From Planococcus lenghuensis (GTDB lineage: Bacteria; Bacillota; Bacilli; Bacillales_A; Planococcaceae): DNA of 64,000 bases. The position numbers were made by a program, and so were the translations under genes. Shown here piece by piece: positions 18,536-61,220 of the stretch (its first letter is position 1; each line of letters begins with the position of its first letter). Below the pieces are notes generated by a model, which saw only the letters and a list, made by a program, of their open reading frames with translations, was not told the origin of the DNA and did no database searches. The stretch lies in contig NZ_CP019640.1 in the NCBI RefSeq assembly GCF_001999905.1, positions 1,902,001-1,966,000 on the forward strand, read 5' to 3'.

Positions 18536-18555
18536 CACCTGTTGAGATTCTTGAA

Positions 18556-18695
18556 AAAGCCGCAAAGAATCATCGGATTCCTTGCGGCTTTAGAAGCAAT
18601 TCCATCGTTTGAAGCATGTTACAAAGTTAGACAAGAGATGTTTGACCATGCCTCTAAATTAACTGACAATTTGAAAACCACTGTACAGTCCCCGT
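18556..18695 (-). ncRNA. Degenerate orphan copy of the cluster A/B leader
   Basis: The hairpin at 18556-18591 (GCCGCAAAGAATC...GGATTCCTTGCGGC with a flanking T/A run) matches the terminator of the two cluster leaders. Weaker matches follow at the expected spacing (GCATGTTAC near 18616 and TGTACAGT near 18684). The closing stem seen in the leaders at 21556 and 61074 is not preserved. No cluster gene follows it. Confidence 0.45.
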
Positions 18696-18809: not shown

Positions 18810-19043
18810 TTAGTTCTTGATAACCGATGTGCTGCCGTCCGTTCCAAGGACCATAATCTCCACTTCATCCAAGGATCTAATTCCCTGATTCAAGATAGCC
18901 TGCAGATCTCCATTTCCTTTATCCACCCGATTTTCATGACATCCCGGTACATTTATGATTTTCAATGAAATCGTTTCATAATTTTTTAGTTCAATTCGCT
19001 TAAAAAAGTTTTGTTGAAAAGGAAGTGGCAGTCTGCTTAGCAC
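18810..19043 (-). CDS. Small protein coupled to DUF2294 gene, unknown function
   Basis: A 77-residue soluble protein I do not recognise. It starts at a GTG that overlaps the DUF2294 stop codon by seven bases, so it is probably translated by coupling. Its second half (GDLQAILNQGIRSLDEVEIM, VLGTDGSTSVIKN) looks like an alpha/beta fold with a closing strand; there is no signal peptide, membrane segment or metal motif. A strong terminator follows. Reality is supported by the overlap and terminator rather than by homology. Confidence 0.55.
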   Translation of the reverse strand: MLSRLPLPFQQNFFKRIELKNYETISLKIINVPGCHENRVDKGNGDLQAILNQGIRSLDEVEIMVLGTDGSTSVIKN

Positions 19044-19717
19044 TTTTCCTGTCCCAAGCGGAAGACGGCATAGCTTAGGTCTTTATCAAAATTCCAATAC
19101 AGAAAAGTCTCGTTGATGCTACGGTTCAAGGGGGTTTCCAAGTCAGCTTCTTTAAATGCCCGGCGTTCCAATAGCTGCCTTGACAATTTTAATTCCTCAA
19201 TGAAGCCATTCCTGATGAACTCTTTTTCAATCTCCAGCAGAATTCCTGAACGCCGGACGAGGATCGTGCGGTCGTTCAGCCAGTGGATATCCGTACGGTC
19301 AGGAATTTTCTGTAATTTCCCCCCCGCTCTGTTTATGTGTGCCCGCAACGCCTGTTCATCGCCCATGCTTGGCCGCTTTACGTGCTGTTCTTCCACTTCT
19401 TCATGGATGATGCCGAGTATGAGTCCTGTCTCGCTTTCGAAATTCCAGTCCGTATAGAACTCTTTCACATGACGGGCAGTGCTCCTCTCAATCGTTTGGA
19501 TAATCTCCGATTCCAGACTGCTCATAATTATATCTCTTGTGACCAGTGCATGCTTCATCTCATTCTGCTTCACCAGGCTTTTTTCTATCGCCGTCAACCA
19601 ATCACGGAAGTGGAGGGTGATGAACGCGCTTTCAATGGCGACATATACAACTGCCGGGCCTTTTCCGAAATGCGCGCGGAATAAGGTGGAGATATAACTG
19701 CTGATTTCACGTTCCAT
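19037..19717 (-). CDS. Tandem DUF2294 protein
   Basis: About 226 residues made of two DUF2294 units: residues about 1-110 (GKGPAVVYVAIESAFITLHF, then LVTRDIIMSS) and about 118-225 (DRTDIHWLNDRTILVRRSG, then LLERRAFKEADLETPLNRSI). DUF2294 proteins are widespread in Bacillales, are often next to transporter or regulator genes, and have no agreed function. The start at 19717 has AAAGGGG six bases upstream; a better-looking AAAGGAGG precedes a TTG eight codons earlier, so either may be used. It is followed by an overlapping small gene. A broken one-domain copy lies 500 bp away on the other strand. Confidence 0.8.
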   Translation of the reverse strand: MEREISSYISTLFRAHFGKGPAVVYVAIESAFITLHFRDWLTAIEKSLVKQNEMKHALVTRDIIMSSLESEIIQTIERSTARHVKEFYTDWNFESETGLILGIIHEEVEEQHVKRPSMGDEQALRAHINRAGGKLQKIPDRTDIHWLNDRTILVRRSGILLEIEKEFIRNGFIEELKLSRQLLERRAFKEADLETPLNRSINETFLYWNFDKDLSYAVFRLGQEKC

Positions 19718-19989
19718 CGGGTTCCCCTTTGACAAATCCATGCCTCCTTTATGCAGTGAACACTTGTGCTGTTTTGACTAGTATACAGGAAAATAAGCCT
19801 GTGTTTTCTGCTATTGTGGTAATTATTCCATGCTTTCAGCTGATTTACTGTTTAGGGAAGACCTCTTCCACTGTTGTTTCGTCCCCTTTTAAATTCCCCG
19901 TTAGCCACAGGTGCGACGAGTACATCTTCGACCAGATAAAACGGAATGTACCTGAACAGCTGTCACGCTACCTCCACAAAAAGAAAAAC

Positions 19990-20006
19990 TCCTGCAAGCT
20001 CAGGAA
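19990..20006 (-). terminator. Terminator of cluster A
   Basis: On the minus strand TCCTG-AGCTTG-CAGGA-type hairpin followed by GTTTTTCTTTTT, directly behind the last cluster A gene. Confidence 0.65.
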
Positions 20007-20007
20007 T

Positions 20008-20241
20008 TTAGACAGAAGAAGTTGAATTGAGCTGGTTAGCGATAATGCTTGCCGCATCTTCTATCGAAGCATAGTATTCAACGTCTTACGTCTGAAGATA
20101 CGTCAGTTCCAGCACTTTGGTGTCCGGCAGGCACTTGACTTCCATCCAGTCTATTCCCTTCTTCGTAAAAGTTTGCGTGATATTAACCGTATGGTATTGG
20201 GAAATAGTCACCAAGAGATCTTTAATATGCGTTACATCCAT
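20008..20241 (-). pseudogene. Cluster A gene iv: small YkuJ-like protein with nonsense codon
   Basis: A 77-codon frame with an in-frame TAA at codon 52 (20086-20088). It starts at an ATG behind AAAGGAGGAACCG and reads DVTHIKDLLVTISQYHTVNI, ending DVEYYASIEDAASIIANQLN after the stop. The homologue in cluster B (59509-59727) reads ELNNIKELLMTISQYHTVNI and has Gln at the stop position, so CAA to TAA is the likely change. The reading frame is otherwise undamaged on both sides, which points to a recent mutation. The 51-residue product would lack the last helix. Confidence 0.85.
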
Positions 20242-20347
20242 AATCGGTTCCTCCTTTGTATTGCCGTGACTTAATCTGAAACCGTCAGGAAGTCTTGCTT
20301 GTCCAGTTAGATGCCATTATTGCCTGATTGTCCATCACTTGTCGCTG

Positions 20348-20689
20348 CTAGCATGCCGTCAACATCCGTTCCTCCGCTTCCGGCGTCATCAGCATCTCGC
20401 GCGGCTGCATACACTGCTGAACCTGTTCTGTCATCACATGCCCAAGCCCTTCCCCCTGGTGAGAGGGATTCACCGCAATATGACGAATGACAAAATATGC
20501 TTCCTCCACTTCCACACCGATGAGACCGACGTAATCATCTTCCTCTTTCCACAAGTACAGCTGCCGTTCGGGCTTCTCCTCATAGAGCCGGATCAACGCC
20601 TGGAGCTTTTTCACCTTCTGCTCGTTCGGCATCAGCCCGAGCAGCCCCATTGCGATTTTCTCGCATGATTTTTTGTATTTCACCAGCAT
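20348..20689 (-). CDS. Cluster A gene iii: RibT-like GNAT acetyltransferase
   Basis: A 113-residue GNAT protein closely resembling RibT, the acetyltransferase encoded at the end of the Bacillus riboflavin operon: MLVKYKKSCEKIAMGLLGLM at the start, LYLWKEEDDYVGLIGVEVEE, and the acetyl-CoA loop VNPSHQGEGLGHVM (Q/RxxGxG/A type). RibT itself lacks a firm substrate. It is shorter than RibT (about 124). GAGAGGAC precedes the ATG. It is flanked by two nonsense-mutated genes of the same operon, yet this frame is intact. No riboflavin biosynthesis gene is in the window, so this is a paralogue outside the rib operon. Confidence 0.85.
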   Translation of the reverse strand: MLVKYKKSCEKIAMGLLGLMPNEQKVKKLQALIRLYEEKPERQLYLWKEEDDYVGLIGVEVEEAYFVIRHIAVNPSHQGEGLGHVMTEQVQQCMQPREMLMTPEAEERMLTAC

Positions 20690-20722
20690 AAAGCACGTCC
20701 TCTCTTCATTCGTCCGTACGGT

Positions 20723-21073
20723 TTACACCATGGTACTTCTAGAGACCAGTCGTCTAAATTTGACGGCTTGATACACAGGGGTCAAGGAATACAACTCATT
20801 CTGCTGGTACCGGGAAAGCCGTTCCATTTCTTGGAACGCCTCTTCGGATACCTGGTAGGTATAGATGCCATCCGGCGCAATTTACAGCTCCCGAGCAGCC
20901 TGGTTCCAGACCACTTCCTCCAGACCGACCCAGACACAATCACTGCGCTCCGGCGTTTCGATCGTCAAACGGGCAAACAGGGTGATGGACATTTGGCCAT
21001 TCTCCGCATGAGTATCTTTTACGTGTGAAAAGTAGTAATGGGTATCTATTGGAGACAGGGATGGTTTTGGCAT
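20723..21073 (-). pseudogene. Cluster A gene ii with nonsense codon
   Basis: A 116-codon frame interrupted by TAA at codon 64 (20882-20884). Both halves match the intact cluster B gene at 60226-60579: THYYFSHVKDTHAENGQMSI and LFARLTIETPERSDCVWVGL before the stop; GIYTYQVSEEAFQEMERLSR and QQNELYSLTPVYQAVKFRRL after it. AGAGGTGAAG precedes the ATG. The family is unknown to me: a mixed alpha/beta protein, no membrane segment. With gene iv it makes two of four cluster A genes nonsense-mutated, each by a TAA in an otherwise clean frame. Confidence 0.85.
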
Positions 21074-21108
21074 GGTCTTCACCTCTCTTCAGTTGGTTCG
21101 ATTCATGA

Positions 21109-21510
21109 TCAATCCGCAATTCTTTTGAATGCTTCCGTGAGCCGGTCCGCAAAGATTTCTGGCGGCTCGATGGCTTCGATGTGCAGGCAGACGACGTCCG
21201 CTTTCTCTTCCTGCCACTGGTGGTAATCCGTCGGCAGCGGGTGTTCATGCTGGAGCAATTCCGACAGGAACCCCTCGCACTCTTCGATCCGCAGGTACAA
21301 TTCCGCCTCGTTCCGGGCCACCCCGCTATCCTGGTAATCCTTAAATGAAATAATCAGGTTAAACAGGGCCGTACGGACCAAATTCCCTTCCCCGATCTCA
21401 ATGGTTCTCTTCCGGCTGAACCGGTAGTTCTCCCCGGTGGATTCCGACTCCATATTCAGCAGGGTTCCGATGTGCCGGGCCGTTGTTTCGGATGACTTCA
21501 CGCCGTTCAC
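21109..21510 (-). CDS. Cluster A gene i, unknown family
   Basis: A 133-residue protein, paralogous to 60587-61009 in cluster B. Shared blocks are RTIEIG with LVRT, FNLIISFKDYQDSGVARNEA, ELYLRIEECEGFLSELLQHE, HPLPTDYHQWQEEKADVVCL and EPPEIFADRLTEAF. The pattern is of a short beta hairpin followed by amphipathic helices; many conserved acidic and aromatic residues, no signal peptide or known catalytic motif. It is the first gene behind the conserved leader, so its expression is what the leader would control. I do not recognise the family. Confidence 0.75.
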   Translation of the reverse strand: MNGVKSSETTARHIGTLLNMESESTGENYRFSRKRTIEIGEGNLVRTALFNLIISFKDYQDSGVARNEAELYLRIEECEGFLSELLQHEHPLPTDYHQWQEEKADVVCLHIEAIEPPEIFADRLTEAFKRIAD

Positions 21511-21555
21511 TCCTCTATTTTCTGTGGGGTCTTATTTTATTTTGTTGAAAACCTT

Positions 21556-21711
21556 AAAAAGCCGCAAAGAATCGTTGGATTCTTTGCGGCTCTGAAGGGA
21601 GCCTTGTTGTCTGCAGGATGTTACCGATTTAACAAGAAAATTTCCTGCTTACTGATGCCACAATTAATTACCATTTTACAGGTTTTGAAGACCTGAGTAC
21701 AGTAAGCTCCC
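21556..21711 (-). ncRNA. Structured leader of cluster A, riboswitch- or attenuator-like
   Basis: In the transcript sense, GGGAGC (21711-21706) can pair with GCUCCC (21602-21597), closing about 103 nt. Next to the closing stem lie the blocks UUACUGUAC (5' side) and CUGCAGACAA (3' side), with CAUCAG in between. A terminator follows: GCCGCAAAGAAUC pairs with GAUUCUUUGCGGC, then UUUUU (21590-21556), 46 bp before gene i. The same layout is found before cluster B with a different but still complementary closing stem. GGCUC of the closing stem could also pair with GAGCC of the terminator arm, allowing a switch. I match it to no class I know. Confidence 0.65.
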
Positions 21712-42834: not shown

Positions 42835-42951
42835 GAAGAAACATGATTCATCATCATAATAAGCTAGCTATCGCTCATTGATAGAATAACCATTGGACTT
42901 CTTTTTAATCTCTGCTTTAACTTTATCTTTTTTGCCCGATCAAGCGAAAAA

Positions 42952-57612: not shown

Positions 57613-58497
57613 TCAGGCAGCGGCCTGTAGCTGGAGTCGGTAGTGAACCGGACTCCGGCCATTCAGTTTGCTCTTAATGCGCTTGCAGTTGTAGTACTCC
57701 ATGTAGTCGGCCAATTCCCGTTCGAACTGCTCAACTGTCGCAAATGTCCGCTTATACAGAAATTCGGATTTCATGATGCCGAAGAAGTTCTCCATCACCG
57801 AATTATCCAAGCAGGTACCCTTTCGGGACATACTCTGGGTAATGTGGTTCGCCACAAGCGTTTCACGGTACGGCTCAATCCGGTAATGCCAGCCTTGGTC
57901 GGAATGCAGAAGAAGGTCATCGCCCGGTGTTAAGCGCTCGAGCGCTTGGTCCAGCATGGTGGACACCAGTTTGTAGGTTGGACGCGCGCCTAAGGTATAC
58001 GTAATGATTTCACCGTTAAACAGATCCAGCACCGGTGACAGATACAGCTTCTGGCTGCACACTTTGAATTCCGTGATGTCGGTGGCCCATTTTTCGTTCG
58101 GCTGATCCGCTGTGAACTGGCGATCCAGAAGGTTCGGCGCCACATGGCTGCCTTTGCCGGGATACGAATTATACTTCCGGGTCCGTACCGGTCGAAAGGT
58201 GCTTTTCAATCCCAGTTCGCCCATGAGGCGCTGTACTTTTTTATGGTTCACCCGTATCCCCTGGTTCACCAGTTGATCACAGATGCGGCGATACCCGTAA
58301 TTGCCGTCGTGTTCATCATAGATGGCCTGGATCTGTTCTTTGAGTGCCGCGTCCGGGTCTGGCCGGTTCATGCGCGCTACACATGCATAATAGGTGCTGC
58401 GGGCCATGCCCGCCACCTTGATCAGTTGATTCACCGGAAATTCATGCCTTAACTCGAAGACGGCTTGCGCCCGTTCTTGGTTGGTGATGACTCCTTT
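57613..58497 (-). CDS. IS3-family transposase OrfB (made as OrfAB by frameshift)
   Basis: The DDE part of the transposase. Conserved blocks are GNYGYRRICDQLVNQGIRVN, WATDITEFKVCSQKLYLSPV with the first Asp, DLLLHSDQGWHYRIEPYRET with the second, and GTCLDNSVMENFFGIMKSEF with the Glu (DDE complete). The frame is open from the A-run CAGAAAAAGGAG at about 58500, reading GVITNQERAQAVFELRHEFP before the first ATG. OrfAB would arise by -1 frameshift there, as in IS150. The ATG-started part alone spans 57613-58434. Confidence 0.92.
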   Translation of the reverse strand, partial: KGVITNQERAQAVFELRHEFPVNQLIKVAGMARSTYYACVARMNRPDPDAALKEQIQAIYDEHDGNYGYRRICDQLVNQGIRVNHKKVQRLMGELGLKSTFRPVRTRKYNSYPGKGSHVAPNLLDRQFTADQPNEKWATDITEFKVCSQKLYLSPVLDLFNGEIITYTLGARPTYKLVSTMLDQALERLTPGDDLLLHSDQGWHYRIEPYRETLVANHITQSMSRKGTCLDNSVMENFFGIMKSEFLYKRTFATVEQFERELADYMEYYNCKRIKSKLNGRSPVHYRLQLQAAA

Positions 58498-58985
58498 TTC
58501 TGAGCTAAGGCTCTCAGCTTTTTTGAATAGGCAAGCTCCATGCGCAGGCGCTCGTTCTCCGCCTCGGCAGCTGCCAACGCCTTTTCCAGTGCATCCTGCT
58601 GATCTGACGTCTTCCGTTGGTCCCGTTTCACCGCCGACTCCTCCTTCTCGAGGGAGAGGAGCGTCTCTGGCCGGTCCATTAGCTGCCGTTTCCAGCGAAG
58701 CACGGTCTGCGGGGAAGAGATATTGTACTTGACAGCCGTAGCCAGGAGGGAGGCGCCCGTCTCCATCATGTCCTTGAGTACGTCCAGTTTAAACGTAACC
58801 GAGTAGTTTGTACATGAAGAACGGAGCCGGAGACCATCCATCCCGTGCGCCCGATACAGACCAACCCACTTCCGGACTGATTTGTGATCAATCCCAATCT
58901 GTTCAGCGATGCCCCGATAGGAGGCATTCCCATTCAGATATTGCTGGACCGCTTCGAATTTTTCGGTTTCTGTGAATTTCCTCAT
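58449..58985 (-). CDS. IS3-family OrfA
   Basis: A 178-residue OrfA with the helix-turn-helix (SYRGIAEQIGIDHKSVRKWV) and a second one (LLATAVKYNISSPQTVLRWK), then a leucine-rich coiled coil (LEKALAAAEAENERLRMELA) for dimerisation. GGAGG lies ten bases before the ATG and inside the right terminal repeat. Its length is above that of short-form OrfA and fits IS150-type elements. The C-terminus (PTKNGRKPSSS) is specific to the non-shifted frame. Confidence 0.9.
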   Translation of the reverse strand: MRKFTETEKFEAVQQYLNGNASYRGIAEQIGIDHKSVRKWVGLYRAHGMDGLRLRSSCTNYSVTFKLDVLKDMMETGASLLATAVKYNISSPQTVLRWKRQLMDRPETLLSLEKEESAVKRDQRKTSDQQDALEKALAAAEAENERLRMELAYSKKLRALAQKKESSPTKNGRKPSSS

Positions 58986-59259
58986 TAGCACTGCACCTCC
59001 AATGTGGGTGTCCAACATTTGGGGTGCAGTGCACTCATGCTTCACGGCGAGGGTCTCGGCCACCCGATCTTCCGCCGGAGTCGCCGGTTTCCTGTCCACC
59101 CCGACTTAAGAGACAGCGGCAGATCAGAAAAAGTGTGTATCTCACTGTTTCAGCGAATGGGCTCAGCAAATAATAGATTAAAAAGGCGGGAAGAGGGCTG
59201 GAACCCTTTTCCCGCCTTTATGCATTTTTTATTATGTGTGTCTCTTTCATTGACCTGGC

Positions 59260-59508: not shown

Positions 59509-59727
59509 TCAATTGATTTGGCGAGCTATAATAGTGGCCGCTTCATCGATGGATGTATGATGTTCGACTGTTTGGGTCTGTATATAGGTCAGTTCCAACA
59601 CTCTTGTTTCCGGCATACATTTGACAACAATCCAATCTTCCCCTGTTTTTGAGAAGGTCTGCGTAATGTTGACCGTATGATATTGCGATATGGTCATCAG
59701 CAGTTCTTTGATATTATTCAATTCCAT
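59509..59727 (-). CDS. Cluster B gene iv: small YkuJ-like protein
   Basis: A 72-residue soluble protein, intact counterpart of the nonsense-mutated cluster A gene and of the lone gene at 25188-25409. It reads ELNNIKELLMTISQYHTVNI, TQTFSKTGEDWIVVKCMPET, VLELTYIQTQTVEHHTSIDE and AATIIARQIN. Helix, three strands, helix; resembles YkuJ (DUF1797) by eye. GGGGGGAACC precedes the ATG at 59727. It is 120 bp from the RibT-like gene, a larger gap than in the rest of the cluster. Confidence 0.75.
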   Translation of the reverse strand: MELNNIKELLMTISQYHTVNITQTFSKTGEDWIVVKCMPETRVLELTYIQTQTVEHHTSIDEAATIIARQIN

Positions 59728-59849
59728 TCTGGTTCCCCCCAGTTTATTAGGAATTTCCAAGGCTTAACGATGTGTAAAGTATTGGAATTCCTGTGGCAGC
59801 CTTTATTTTTTTACCCAATTGTGCATTCTCTTTATGGCTGGATTCTCTT

Positions 59850-60191
59850 TTAGCATACAGTTAAACAAAGTTTTTCTGTTTCCTGTGTTAGTTTGACTTT
59901 ACGCGGTTGGACACGTTGTTCAATTTGTTCAACCATCACCTGCCCCAGTCCTTCTCCCCGATGAGATGGATTGACAGCGATGTGGCAGACGACCACGTGG
60001 TCACCTTCCATTTCCAAACCCAGCAACCCAATATAGTCTTCACCTTCCCGCCAGAAATACAACTGCATTTCCGGTTTTTCTTCATATATTCGGATTAATT
60101 TCTGGAGTTCCTTCACGTTTCGCTCATTCGGCATCAATCCGAGCAACCCCATTGCGATTTTCTCACATGTCTTTTTGTATTTCACTAACAT
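59850..60191 (-). CDS. Cluster B gene iii: RibT-like GNAT acetyltransferase
   Basis: A 113-residue acetyltransferase, paralogue of 20348-20689 (MLVKYKKTCEKIAMGLLGLM, LYFWREGEDYIGLLGLEMEG, HIAVNPSHRGEGLGQVMVEQ with the acetyl-CoA loop RGEGLG). The RibT of the Bacillus rib operon starts in the same way. The C-terminal segment after QVMVEQ is the least conserved between the copies. AAGGGGATCAGG precedes the ATG. Substrate unknown; no rib genes nearby. Confidence 0.86.
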   Translation of the reverse strand: MLVKYKKTCEKIAMGLLGLMPNERNVKELQKLIRIYEEKPEMQLYFWREGEDYIGLLGLEMEGDHVVVCHIAVNPSHRGEGLGQVMVEQIEQRVQPRKVKLTQETEKLCLTVC

Positions 60192-60225
60192 CCCTGATCC
60201 CCTTTCTGCCTTCATCAACTTTGAT

Positions 60226-60579
60226 TTATCCGGTTATACTGCTGATTGGCGCCAGCTGTCTGAATGTCATTGTTTGATGAAGAGGATCCAGAGAATACAG
60301 TTCGTTTTGCTGAGCCTGTGTGAATTGTTTCAGCTCCCGGAAAACCTCTTCCTGTACTTGGTACGTATAAATGCCATTTTTCATTGCAGTCAGTTGCTGG
60401 TTGGCCTGATTGCAGTTGATTTCCTTTATATCCGCCCAGATGCACGTGCTGGATGCCGCCGTTTCGATTGTCAGCCGGGCAAATAATGTAATGAATTCTT
60501 CCCCGTCTTCCATCCGGGTGTCCTTCACCCGTGAAAAATAATAGCGTGTATTTACCGGGAATGGCGCTTGCTGGTGCAT
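60226..60579 (-). CDS. Cluster B gene ii, unknown family
   Basis: A 117-residue soluble protein, the intact form of the cluster A gene 20723-21073. Conserved between copies are TRYYFSRVKDTRMEDGEEFI, TLFARLTIETAASSTCIWAD, NGIYTYQVQEEVFRELKQFT and QQNELYSLDPLHQTMTFRQL. It appears to be an N-terminal beta domain followed by a helix rich in Glu and Gln. AGGAGAGGTG precedes the ATG. It starts only seven bases after gene i ends, so the two are closely coupled. No family recognised. Confidence 0.78.
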   Translation of the reverse strand: MHQQAPFPVNTRYYFSRVKDTRMEDGEEFITLFARLTIETAASSTCIWADIKEINCNQANQQLTAMKNGIYTYQVQEEVFRELKQFTQAQQNELYSLDPLHQTMTFRQLAPISSITG

Positions 60580-60586
60580 TATGCTT

Positions 60587-61009
60587 TCACCTCTCCTGGT
60601 AATGATTCAAATCGCCGTCCGCATCAAACAACAGAAAAGCATCAGCGAGCCGGGCTGCAAAAATTTCAGGCGGCTCGGTCGCTCTCAAGTGCATGCAGAC
60701 GATATCCGCTTTTTCTTCCTGCCATTGCTGATAATCCGTCGGAAGCGGATACTCGTGCCGGATCAGCATGGACAGAAACTCCTCACACTCTTCTGCCCGG
60801 AGATAAAGCTCCGCTTCATTCTGGGCGAGACCGCTGTGCTGGTATTGCTCAAATGAAACGATCAAGTCAAACATGCAGGTTCGCATCAAATCGGCTGTAC
60901 CGATTTCGATGGTCCGCGACTTGCTGAATACGTATTTCTCTCCGCCCAATTCAATTTCCATGTCCAGAAGGTGGCGCACTTGCTGAGCAGCTGCTTCTGA
61001 AGGTTTCAT
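60587..61009 (-). CDS. Cluster B gene i, unknown family
   Basis: A 140-residue soluble protein, paralogue of 21109-21510, with the shared blocks SRTIEIG, LMRTCMFDLIVSFEQYQHSG, AELYLRAEECEEFLSMLIRH, YPLPTDYQQWQEEKADIVCM and EPPEIFAARLADAF. The conservation of LPTDYxQWQEEKAD between copies suggests a functional site. CAGGGGGATTT precedes the ATG. It is first in the operon, about 65 bp from the leader terminator. Function unknown. Confidence 0.78.
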   Translation of the reverse strand: MKPSEAAAQQVRHLLDMEIELGGEKYVFSKSRTIEIGTADLMRTCMFDLIVSFEQYQHSGLAQNEAELYLRAEECEEFLSMLIRHEYPLPTDYQQWQEEKADIVCMHLRATEPPEIFAARLADAFLLFDADGDLNHYQER

Positions 61010-61073
61010 ATAAATCCCCCTGTTAATCGAATTATAATTATTGTCTAATGTGTTTAAGCCATGAAAAAAGCCA

Positions 61074-61220
61074 CAAAGAATCCAAGGACTCTTTGCGGCT
61101 TTGCGCGCAGCTCTATTGTCTGCAGCATTTTACCGGAACATGATTAAATATATTGGTTATCTGATGGGTTTAATTAACTTACATCCTACATGGTTCGTTG
61201 GTGAATGTACAGTAATGCGC
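61074..61220 (-). ncRNA. Structured leader of cluster B, riboswitch- or attenuator-like
   Basis: In the transcript sense GCGCA (61220-61216) can pair with UGCGC (61109-61105), closing about 106 nt, against GGGAGC/GCUCCC in cluster A: the sequence differs but pairing is kept. Inside, UUACUGUAC follows the 5' strand and CUGCAGACAA precedes the 3' strand, with CAUCAG between. The terminator AGCCGCAAAGAGUCC...GGAUUCUUUGUGGCU then UUUUUU lies at 61102-61074. Distances between blocks agree with the cluster A leader within a few bases. Confidence 0.65.

Follow-up and report, generated by a model that had tools for sequence, protein, structure and literature searches.

A many-copy family of leader RNAs, uncatalogued in Rfam, with an attenuator layout and a covarying hairpin

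Two leaders in the window (the whole stretch of 64,000 nucleotides analyzed here), subsequently named A and B, belong to a many-copy RNA family that is uncatalogued in Rfam and has the layout of an attenuator. The helix that truly covaries in these leaders is a small hairpin, H1, and not the closing stem that had been put forward for them. Read from 5′ to 3′, the overall order is a sigma-A-like promoter, a GGY box, H1 and an intrinsic terminator close to the start of the first gene; some relatives carry a further hairpin, H0, upstream. The original prediction had correctly seen that A and B share ordered elements: both leaders lie on the minus strand ahead of first genes that are paralogues, and they have in common, 5′ to 3′, UUACUGUAC, CAUCAG, CUGCAGACAA and a U-tailed terminator. 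Its description of a cis-acting, attenuator-type leader of paralogous clusters holds as well, whereas the proposed order of RNA elements does not, as UUACUGUAC is the −35 region of a predicted sigma-A-like promoter. The features of the two leaders are:

21711-21556, minus strand: leader A, ahead of the first gene of cluster A
21696..21701, minus strand: predicted −35 box TGTACT of leader A, inside UUACUGUAC, 17 nt from TAAAAT
21673..21678, minus strand: predicted −10 box TAAAAT of leader A, transcription start expected near 21666
21652..21657, minus strand: CAUCAG of leader A, probable decayed H0 loop
21623..21625, minus strand: GGY box of leader A, proposed base strand of an antiterminator, which would pair with GCC of the terminator 5′ arm
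21594..21617, minus strand: H1 of leader A, degenerate, loop ACAACAAGG, 3′ strand unpaired (alignment A4)
21556..21590, minus strand: intrinsic terminator of leader A, 13-bp stem and U5
61220-61074, minus strand: leader B, ahead of the first gene of cluster B
61206..61211, minus strand: predicted −35 box TGTACA of leader B, 17 nt from TAGGAT
61183..61188, minus strand: predicted −10 box TAGGAT of leader B, transcription start expected near 61176
61161..61166, minus strand: CAUCAG of leader B, probable decayed H0 loop
61132..61134, minus strand: GGU box of leader B, at the GGY position of the alignment
61103..61126, minus strand: H1 of leader B, loop ACAAUAGAG at 61119-61111
61064..61102, minus strand: intrinsic terminator of leader B, from model match and RNA folding

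The family was searched with the DNA of leader A first and then with two covariance models, R1 and R2. In the window the family model finds B with an E-value of 2.5e-17 and A with 3.7e-13 (the match in A covers 21554-21654 on the minus strand), and many further copies were found. The genome that contains the window has nine R2 matches at E < 1e-6, including A, B and the copies C, D and E; A, B and D lie inside the window, C on a 329-kb contig and E elsewhere in the genome. The third copy in the window, D (18552..18651, minus strand; 58.0 bits with R1, 63.6 bits with R2), is degenerate and located downstream of an MpsC gene (19037-19741, minus strand); no target gene was found behind it. Copy E (locus L011, 4104-4206) has a good H1 and is likewise an orphan with no recognized downstream target gene. 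Matches of the model to the plus strand of the window are terminator palindromes only, so that an RNA on this strand was rejected, as was a window match at 42946, which consists of a terminator only. With A, B and stronger relatives as queries, none of the 4227 models of Rfam 15 reached its gathering score, and nothing meaningful was obtained at E ≤ 10. This agrees with the original prediction, which had assigned the leaders to no known RNA class and had named an Rfam match as the result that would speak against it.

The stem of H1 consists of 4 bp followed by 3 bp, interrupted by a single unpaired base in the 3′ strand, and is capped by a loop of 9 nt with the consensus ACNNYAGNG. In alignment A4 (54 copies) H1 is embedded in the core consensus GGY-NNNN-U-[H1]-A-A-[A/C]-terminator. 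Each of the seven H1 pairs has two-sided changes among the 54 aligned copies, and 94.7% of the cells of H1 and terminator pair. For the whole structure we counted 139 double-change cells compared to 40 in shuffles, with none of 500 shuffles reaching 139, and the covariation signal was gone when the pairing partners were slid by 1–3 nt. An internal mismatch is common at the fourth H1 pair, which fails to form in 25 of 54 copies. In the set of H1 hairpins picked by motif the invariant loop letters are mostly preset by the motif; the model-based alignment serves as an independent check and contains C2 in 53, G7 in 52 and G9 in 53 of the 54 copies. Compensatory base changes had been claimed for the leaders, and they do occur, in H1 and not in the proposed closing stem. 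Covariation, whose loss in further homologues had been named as counter-evidence, is present in these homologues, but in another helix than the one proposed. A leader peptide beginning with AUG-CUG-CAG was considered and dropped; the third codon is UAG in several relatives and the frame shifts in others.

The promoter-like boxes recur across the family: the pattern T[TGA]TAC[ATG]-16/17-TAnnnT lines up at one position of the alignment in 11 distinct copies, A, B and C included, and copy C displays TTTACA-16-TATAAT. Promoter scores of single leaders are not significant against shuffles and a stricter promoter scan listed neither of the minus-strand promoters of A and B, the evidence being the aligned recurrence only. 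Since UUACUGUAC holds the −35 box, the 5′ strand of the proposed closing stem lies outside a transcript starting at the predicted promoter. This stem (GGGAGC/GCUCCC in A, GCGCA/UGCGC in B) had been regarded as one covarying helix framing a riboswitch-like core. We searched 13 distinct copies with an alignable promoter region for the best stem between the region in front of the −35 box and the strand in front of the terminator: A reaches 8 bp (shuffle p 0.01), B 5 bp (shuffle p 0.21), and the 11 others only 3–5 bp, at other places. The 8-bp inverted repeat AAGGGAGC/GCTCCCTT of A, with its low p-value, speaks for the closing stem; against it, the stem is not kept in the 11 other copies, its 5′ strand is located upstream of the predicted −35 box, and its 3′ strand in A is the mutated H1 strand of a decaying cluster. 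A start downstream of the structure had been named beforehand as evidence against the proposal, and for the 5′ strand such a start is what the sequence predicts. The closing stem is probably no part of the leader RNA element, and we consider a core framed by it extremely improbable.

Many leaders carry a second hairpin. H0, an upstream hairpin of at least 5 bp with the same loop, was found in 14 of 49 non-redundant leaders, compared to 0.015 expected (the mean of dinucleotide shuffles, with a maximum of 1). Its stem varies between G–C and A–U pairs. In several leaders H0 begins a few bases after the −10 box, which would place it at the 5′ terminus of the transcript. Three leaders have the unusual letter G4 in the H0 loop, and all three have G4 in H1 too, which suggests one common reader for both loops. 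As two separate small hairpins end in identical apical loops, a protein is a more probable controller than a metabolite bound by an aptamer. The original prediction had left this choice open as a ligand- or protein-controlled attenuator; its attenuator layout is retained and the twin loops favor the protein. Two hairpins are no requirement, since A, B and many further copies have no recognizable H0. CAUCAG is limited to A and B; copy C has ACAAUAG, the first-hairpin loop of relatives, at the homologous position, and for this reason CAUCAG is probably a decayed form of the H0 loop, whose consensus in relatives is ACNNYAGNG.

The terminator completes the attenuator layout, with a G+C-rich stem and a U-run between the promoter-like boxes and the start codon. 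Its helix covaries as well, being 97.9% paired with double changes at 9 pairs, and in many copies the terminator lies 7–38 nt from the start codon. In the GGY box G33 and G34 are each conserved in 53 and Y35 in all 54 copies, and GGY/RCC together with U40–A68 could pair in 53–54 of 54 copies. With its 3 nearly invariant base pairs, GGY/RCC is neither supported nor contradicted by covariation. When the nascent RNA was folded up to the terminator 5′ arm, GGY/RCC and H1 formed in B and in the relative L062, and the fold of L083 was without GGY/RCC. The full RNA folds into the terminator, and full-length B RNA forms H1 plus terminator.

We rate the chances as even that the leaders work by antitermination, with a trans-acting factor binding the loop or loops and GGY/RCC, enclosing H1, in competition with the terminator. 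In the model that we infer, including its direction of control, its factor and its signal, RNA polymerase would start just upstream, H1 and then the strong terminator would form by default, and transcription would stop before the ribosome-binding site. Upon induction the ACNNYAGNG loop of H1 would be recognized in trans by a factor that is most likely an RNA-binding protein; in many leaders this factor, perhaps as a dimer, would also bind the same loop of a 5′-terminal H0. Once bound, it would stabilize an extended form of H1, closed by base pairs between GGY and the RCC at the base of the terminator 5′ arm; the terminator would be blocked and the operon would be read.

The copies have a small set of targets in common. 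About 52 of 55 precede one of seven gene families (48 by a simple signature scan, four more by eye): a CxxC small protein of 63–70 aa with the signatures GDRCGF, REFT and CPxC, a two-domain MpsC, a RibT-like GNAT, the YkuJ-fold protein P4, the DUF1259-like P1, the ∼115-aa P2 with the signature YYFSRVKD, and a DUF7662-GNAT. As a reverse check we used a profile of the CxxC protein, and most loci found carry the element directly upstream. The genes behind A and B relevant here are:

21109..21510, minus strand: P1, first gene of cluster A, weak DUF1259 similarity (PF07485, E 4e-4, below cut-off)
20348..20689, minus strand: GNAT of cluster A, between P2 and P4, paralogue of the RibT-like gene of cluster B
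60587..61009, minus strand: P1 of cluster B, DUF1259-like (PF07485, E 1.1e-5, just over cut-off)
60226..60579, minus strand: P2 of cluster B, ∼115 aa, YYFSRVKDTH family, no Pfam or NCBIfam family
59850..60218, minus strand: RibT-like GNAT of cluster B (RibT, PDB 5xxr, E 2.4e-27, residues 10-104)
59509..59760, minus strand: P4 of cluster B, YkuJ fold (AF2 pLDDT 86; Foldseek E 3.3e-4)

P4 has no Pfam or NCBIfam annotation and a sequence profile found no YkuJ; the structural comparison with YkuJ (VIA Z 12.3, rmsd 1.7, 72 aligned) rests on a confident model, and we assign to P4 the predicted fold of YkuJ without claiming that it belongs to the same family. A structure model of MpsC was left out owing to its low confidence (pLDDT 49). 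Cluster A (20000-21510, minus strand) displays signs of decay: P2 and P4 each contain one in-frame TAA unseen in relatives, and the 3′ strand of H1 in leader A is mutated and no longer pairs. Judged by these changes, copy A is a decaying paralogue. IS3-type transposase genes (57613-59099, minus strand) are located directly behind cluster B.

Other readings of the leaders have to be weighed against antitermination by a loop-binding factor. H1, with or without H0, could be a small aptamer for a metabolite or an ion, the ligand deciding between extended H1 and terminator. The cis position, the terminator, the covariation, the conserved unpaired letters and metabolic-type targets such as the RibT-like GNAT and MpsC would all suit a riboswitch. 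However, with 7 bp and 9 loop nucleotides a single hairpin would make a very small aptamer, the apical loop is where the conserved letters lie, the same loop on two separate hairpins is what one would expect for a protein with repeated sites, and the target genes have no evident common pathway; we regard a riboswitch as unlikely. H1 and terminator can also coexist in one RNA, which leaves room for constitutive termination. The conserved hairpin and terminator could then be a stand-alone small RNA of ∼110 nt that was copied along with the gene families, the downstream genes being read from other promoters or by low read-through. Its own promoter-like boxes, the strong terminator and the orphan copies E and D fit this picture, but not the position of ∼52 of 55 copies in front of the seven shared gene families, where the terminator is in many cases 7–38 nt from the start codon, nor the gene association kept in another bacterial family, and we give it little credence.

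A special case of antitermination would be autoregulation, in which P4 binds both the loops and NusA/RNA polymerase and modulates termination. We know of no RNA binding by P4. Its similarity to YkuJ is one of fold, at ∼20% identity and with no sequence-profile match, and the proposal appears very unlikely to us. In its favor, P4 models as YkuJ, a YkuJ–NusA model has been deposited (9a74), and co-elution of YkuJ with NusA and GreA, both RNAP binders, was seen in crosslinked B. subtilis material (PMC10090944). By analogy this may be taken as a lead toward a role of P4 and is no demonstration of it.

Compared with described systems, the element would by analogy work like those of ANTAR proteins or BglG, but it fails the features of both that we tested. 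The targets of ANTAR proteins (EutV, NasR, AmiR) similarly have two small conserved-loop hairpins before an intrinsic terminator, one of them close to it, and form a scattered regulon (PMC3369931). Their loops are hexanucleotides in which the first letter is A and the fourth is G (PMC3369931), in contrast to the 9-nt ACNNYAGNG in H1 and H0 of the present family, whose stems have 6–9 bp instead of 3 and whose first hairpin is often missing; membership was rejected as the hexaloop A1/G4 feature is absent. The ANTAR domain PF03861 had no match in nine carrier genomes, in a search that lacked a positive control, with no match in any control genome either. The RAT hairpins of BglG, SacY and LicT (RF03530, bglG-cis-reg) resemble the family in that the foot of the hairpin would use the terminator 5′ arm, and differ in that the H1 stem is free in sequence and its loop is fixed. 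A and B gave no match to RF03530, and L062, the best relative, reached 22.6 bits where the gathering score is 80. The CAT_RBD domain (PF03123) is missing in the own genome and in G001, G107 and G225 and present in five other carriers, and the control genomes gave matches; RAT membership was rejected on the covariance score below gathering and the absence of CAT_RBD from 4 of 9 carriers. Attenuating riboswitches and T-boxes of Firmicutes are alike in their 5′-UTR position, a covarying stem and an intrinsic terminator near the start codon, and unlike in that our family has neither an Rfam match nor a large multi-helix aptamer. The window itself contains a SAM riboswitch (RF00162, 46451-46554, minus strand, 86.1 bits). 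A Bacillaceae-1 RNA (RF01690, 51791-51856, minus strand, 40.6 bits) was rejected as a relative of the leaders due to its different structure.

We tentatively suggest, at somewhat less than even chances, that the family represents a new antitermination system in which an RNA-binding factor reads single or paired ACNNYAGNG hairpins and coordinates a small-protein regulon across Planococcaceae and some other Bacilli, possibly via a YkuJ-like, NusA-associated member of the regulon itself. Loop, helix, terminator and promoter provide a clear RNA signature with a short target list, most members of which previously had no family annotation. Two questions can thereby be tested directly: the identity of the factor that reads the loops, and the link between the CxxC small protein, the YkuJ-fold protein, the two-domain MpsC and the RibT-like acetyltransferase. 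Should the twin-loop model be right, it would be a tandem-hairpin antitermination with a loop code different from that of ANTAR.

The genus g12 comprises 42 genomes with family matches, typically several per genome. Beyond this bacterial family, copies of the element next to MpsC genes were found in G370 and G605, genomes of two other families of bacteria. The order in G370 is H0, GGU, terminator, CxxC gene and MpsC. Matches in G268, G105 and G086 were rejected because they are terminators without H1; in G086 (locus L152) the CxxC gene is present and the element absent. The plasmid collection contained no match to MpsC2, and a literature search on DUF2294 or Planococcus riboswitches yielded nothing relevant. 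Planomicrobium sp. Y74 (L040), a genus g12 neighbor, was found with the P1 protein; it carries a cluster of P4, P1 and RibT-like genes and pieces of MpsC with no detectable element, near a gene for a LuxR-type response regulator. In genome G462 (L160, ∼1373-1477) the spacer from MpsC to the CxxC gene has kept GGU, AAAUG and the terminator and its hairpin loop is changed to AAAGAAAG, possibly a variant with another specificity.
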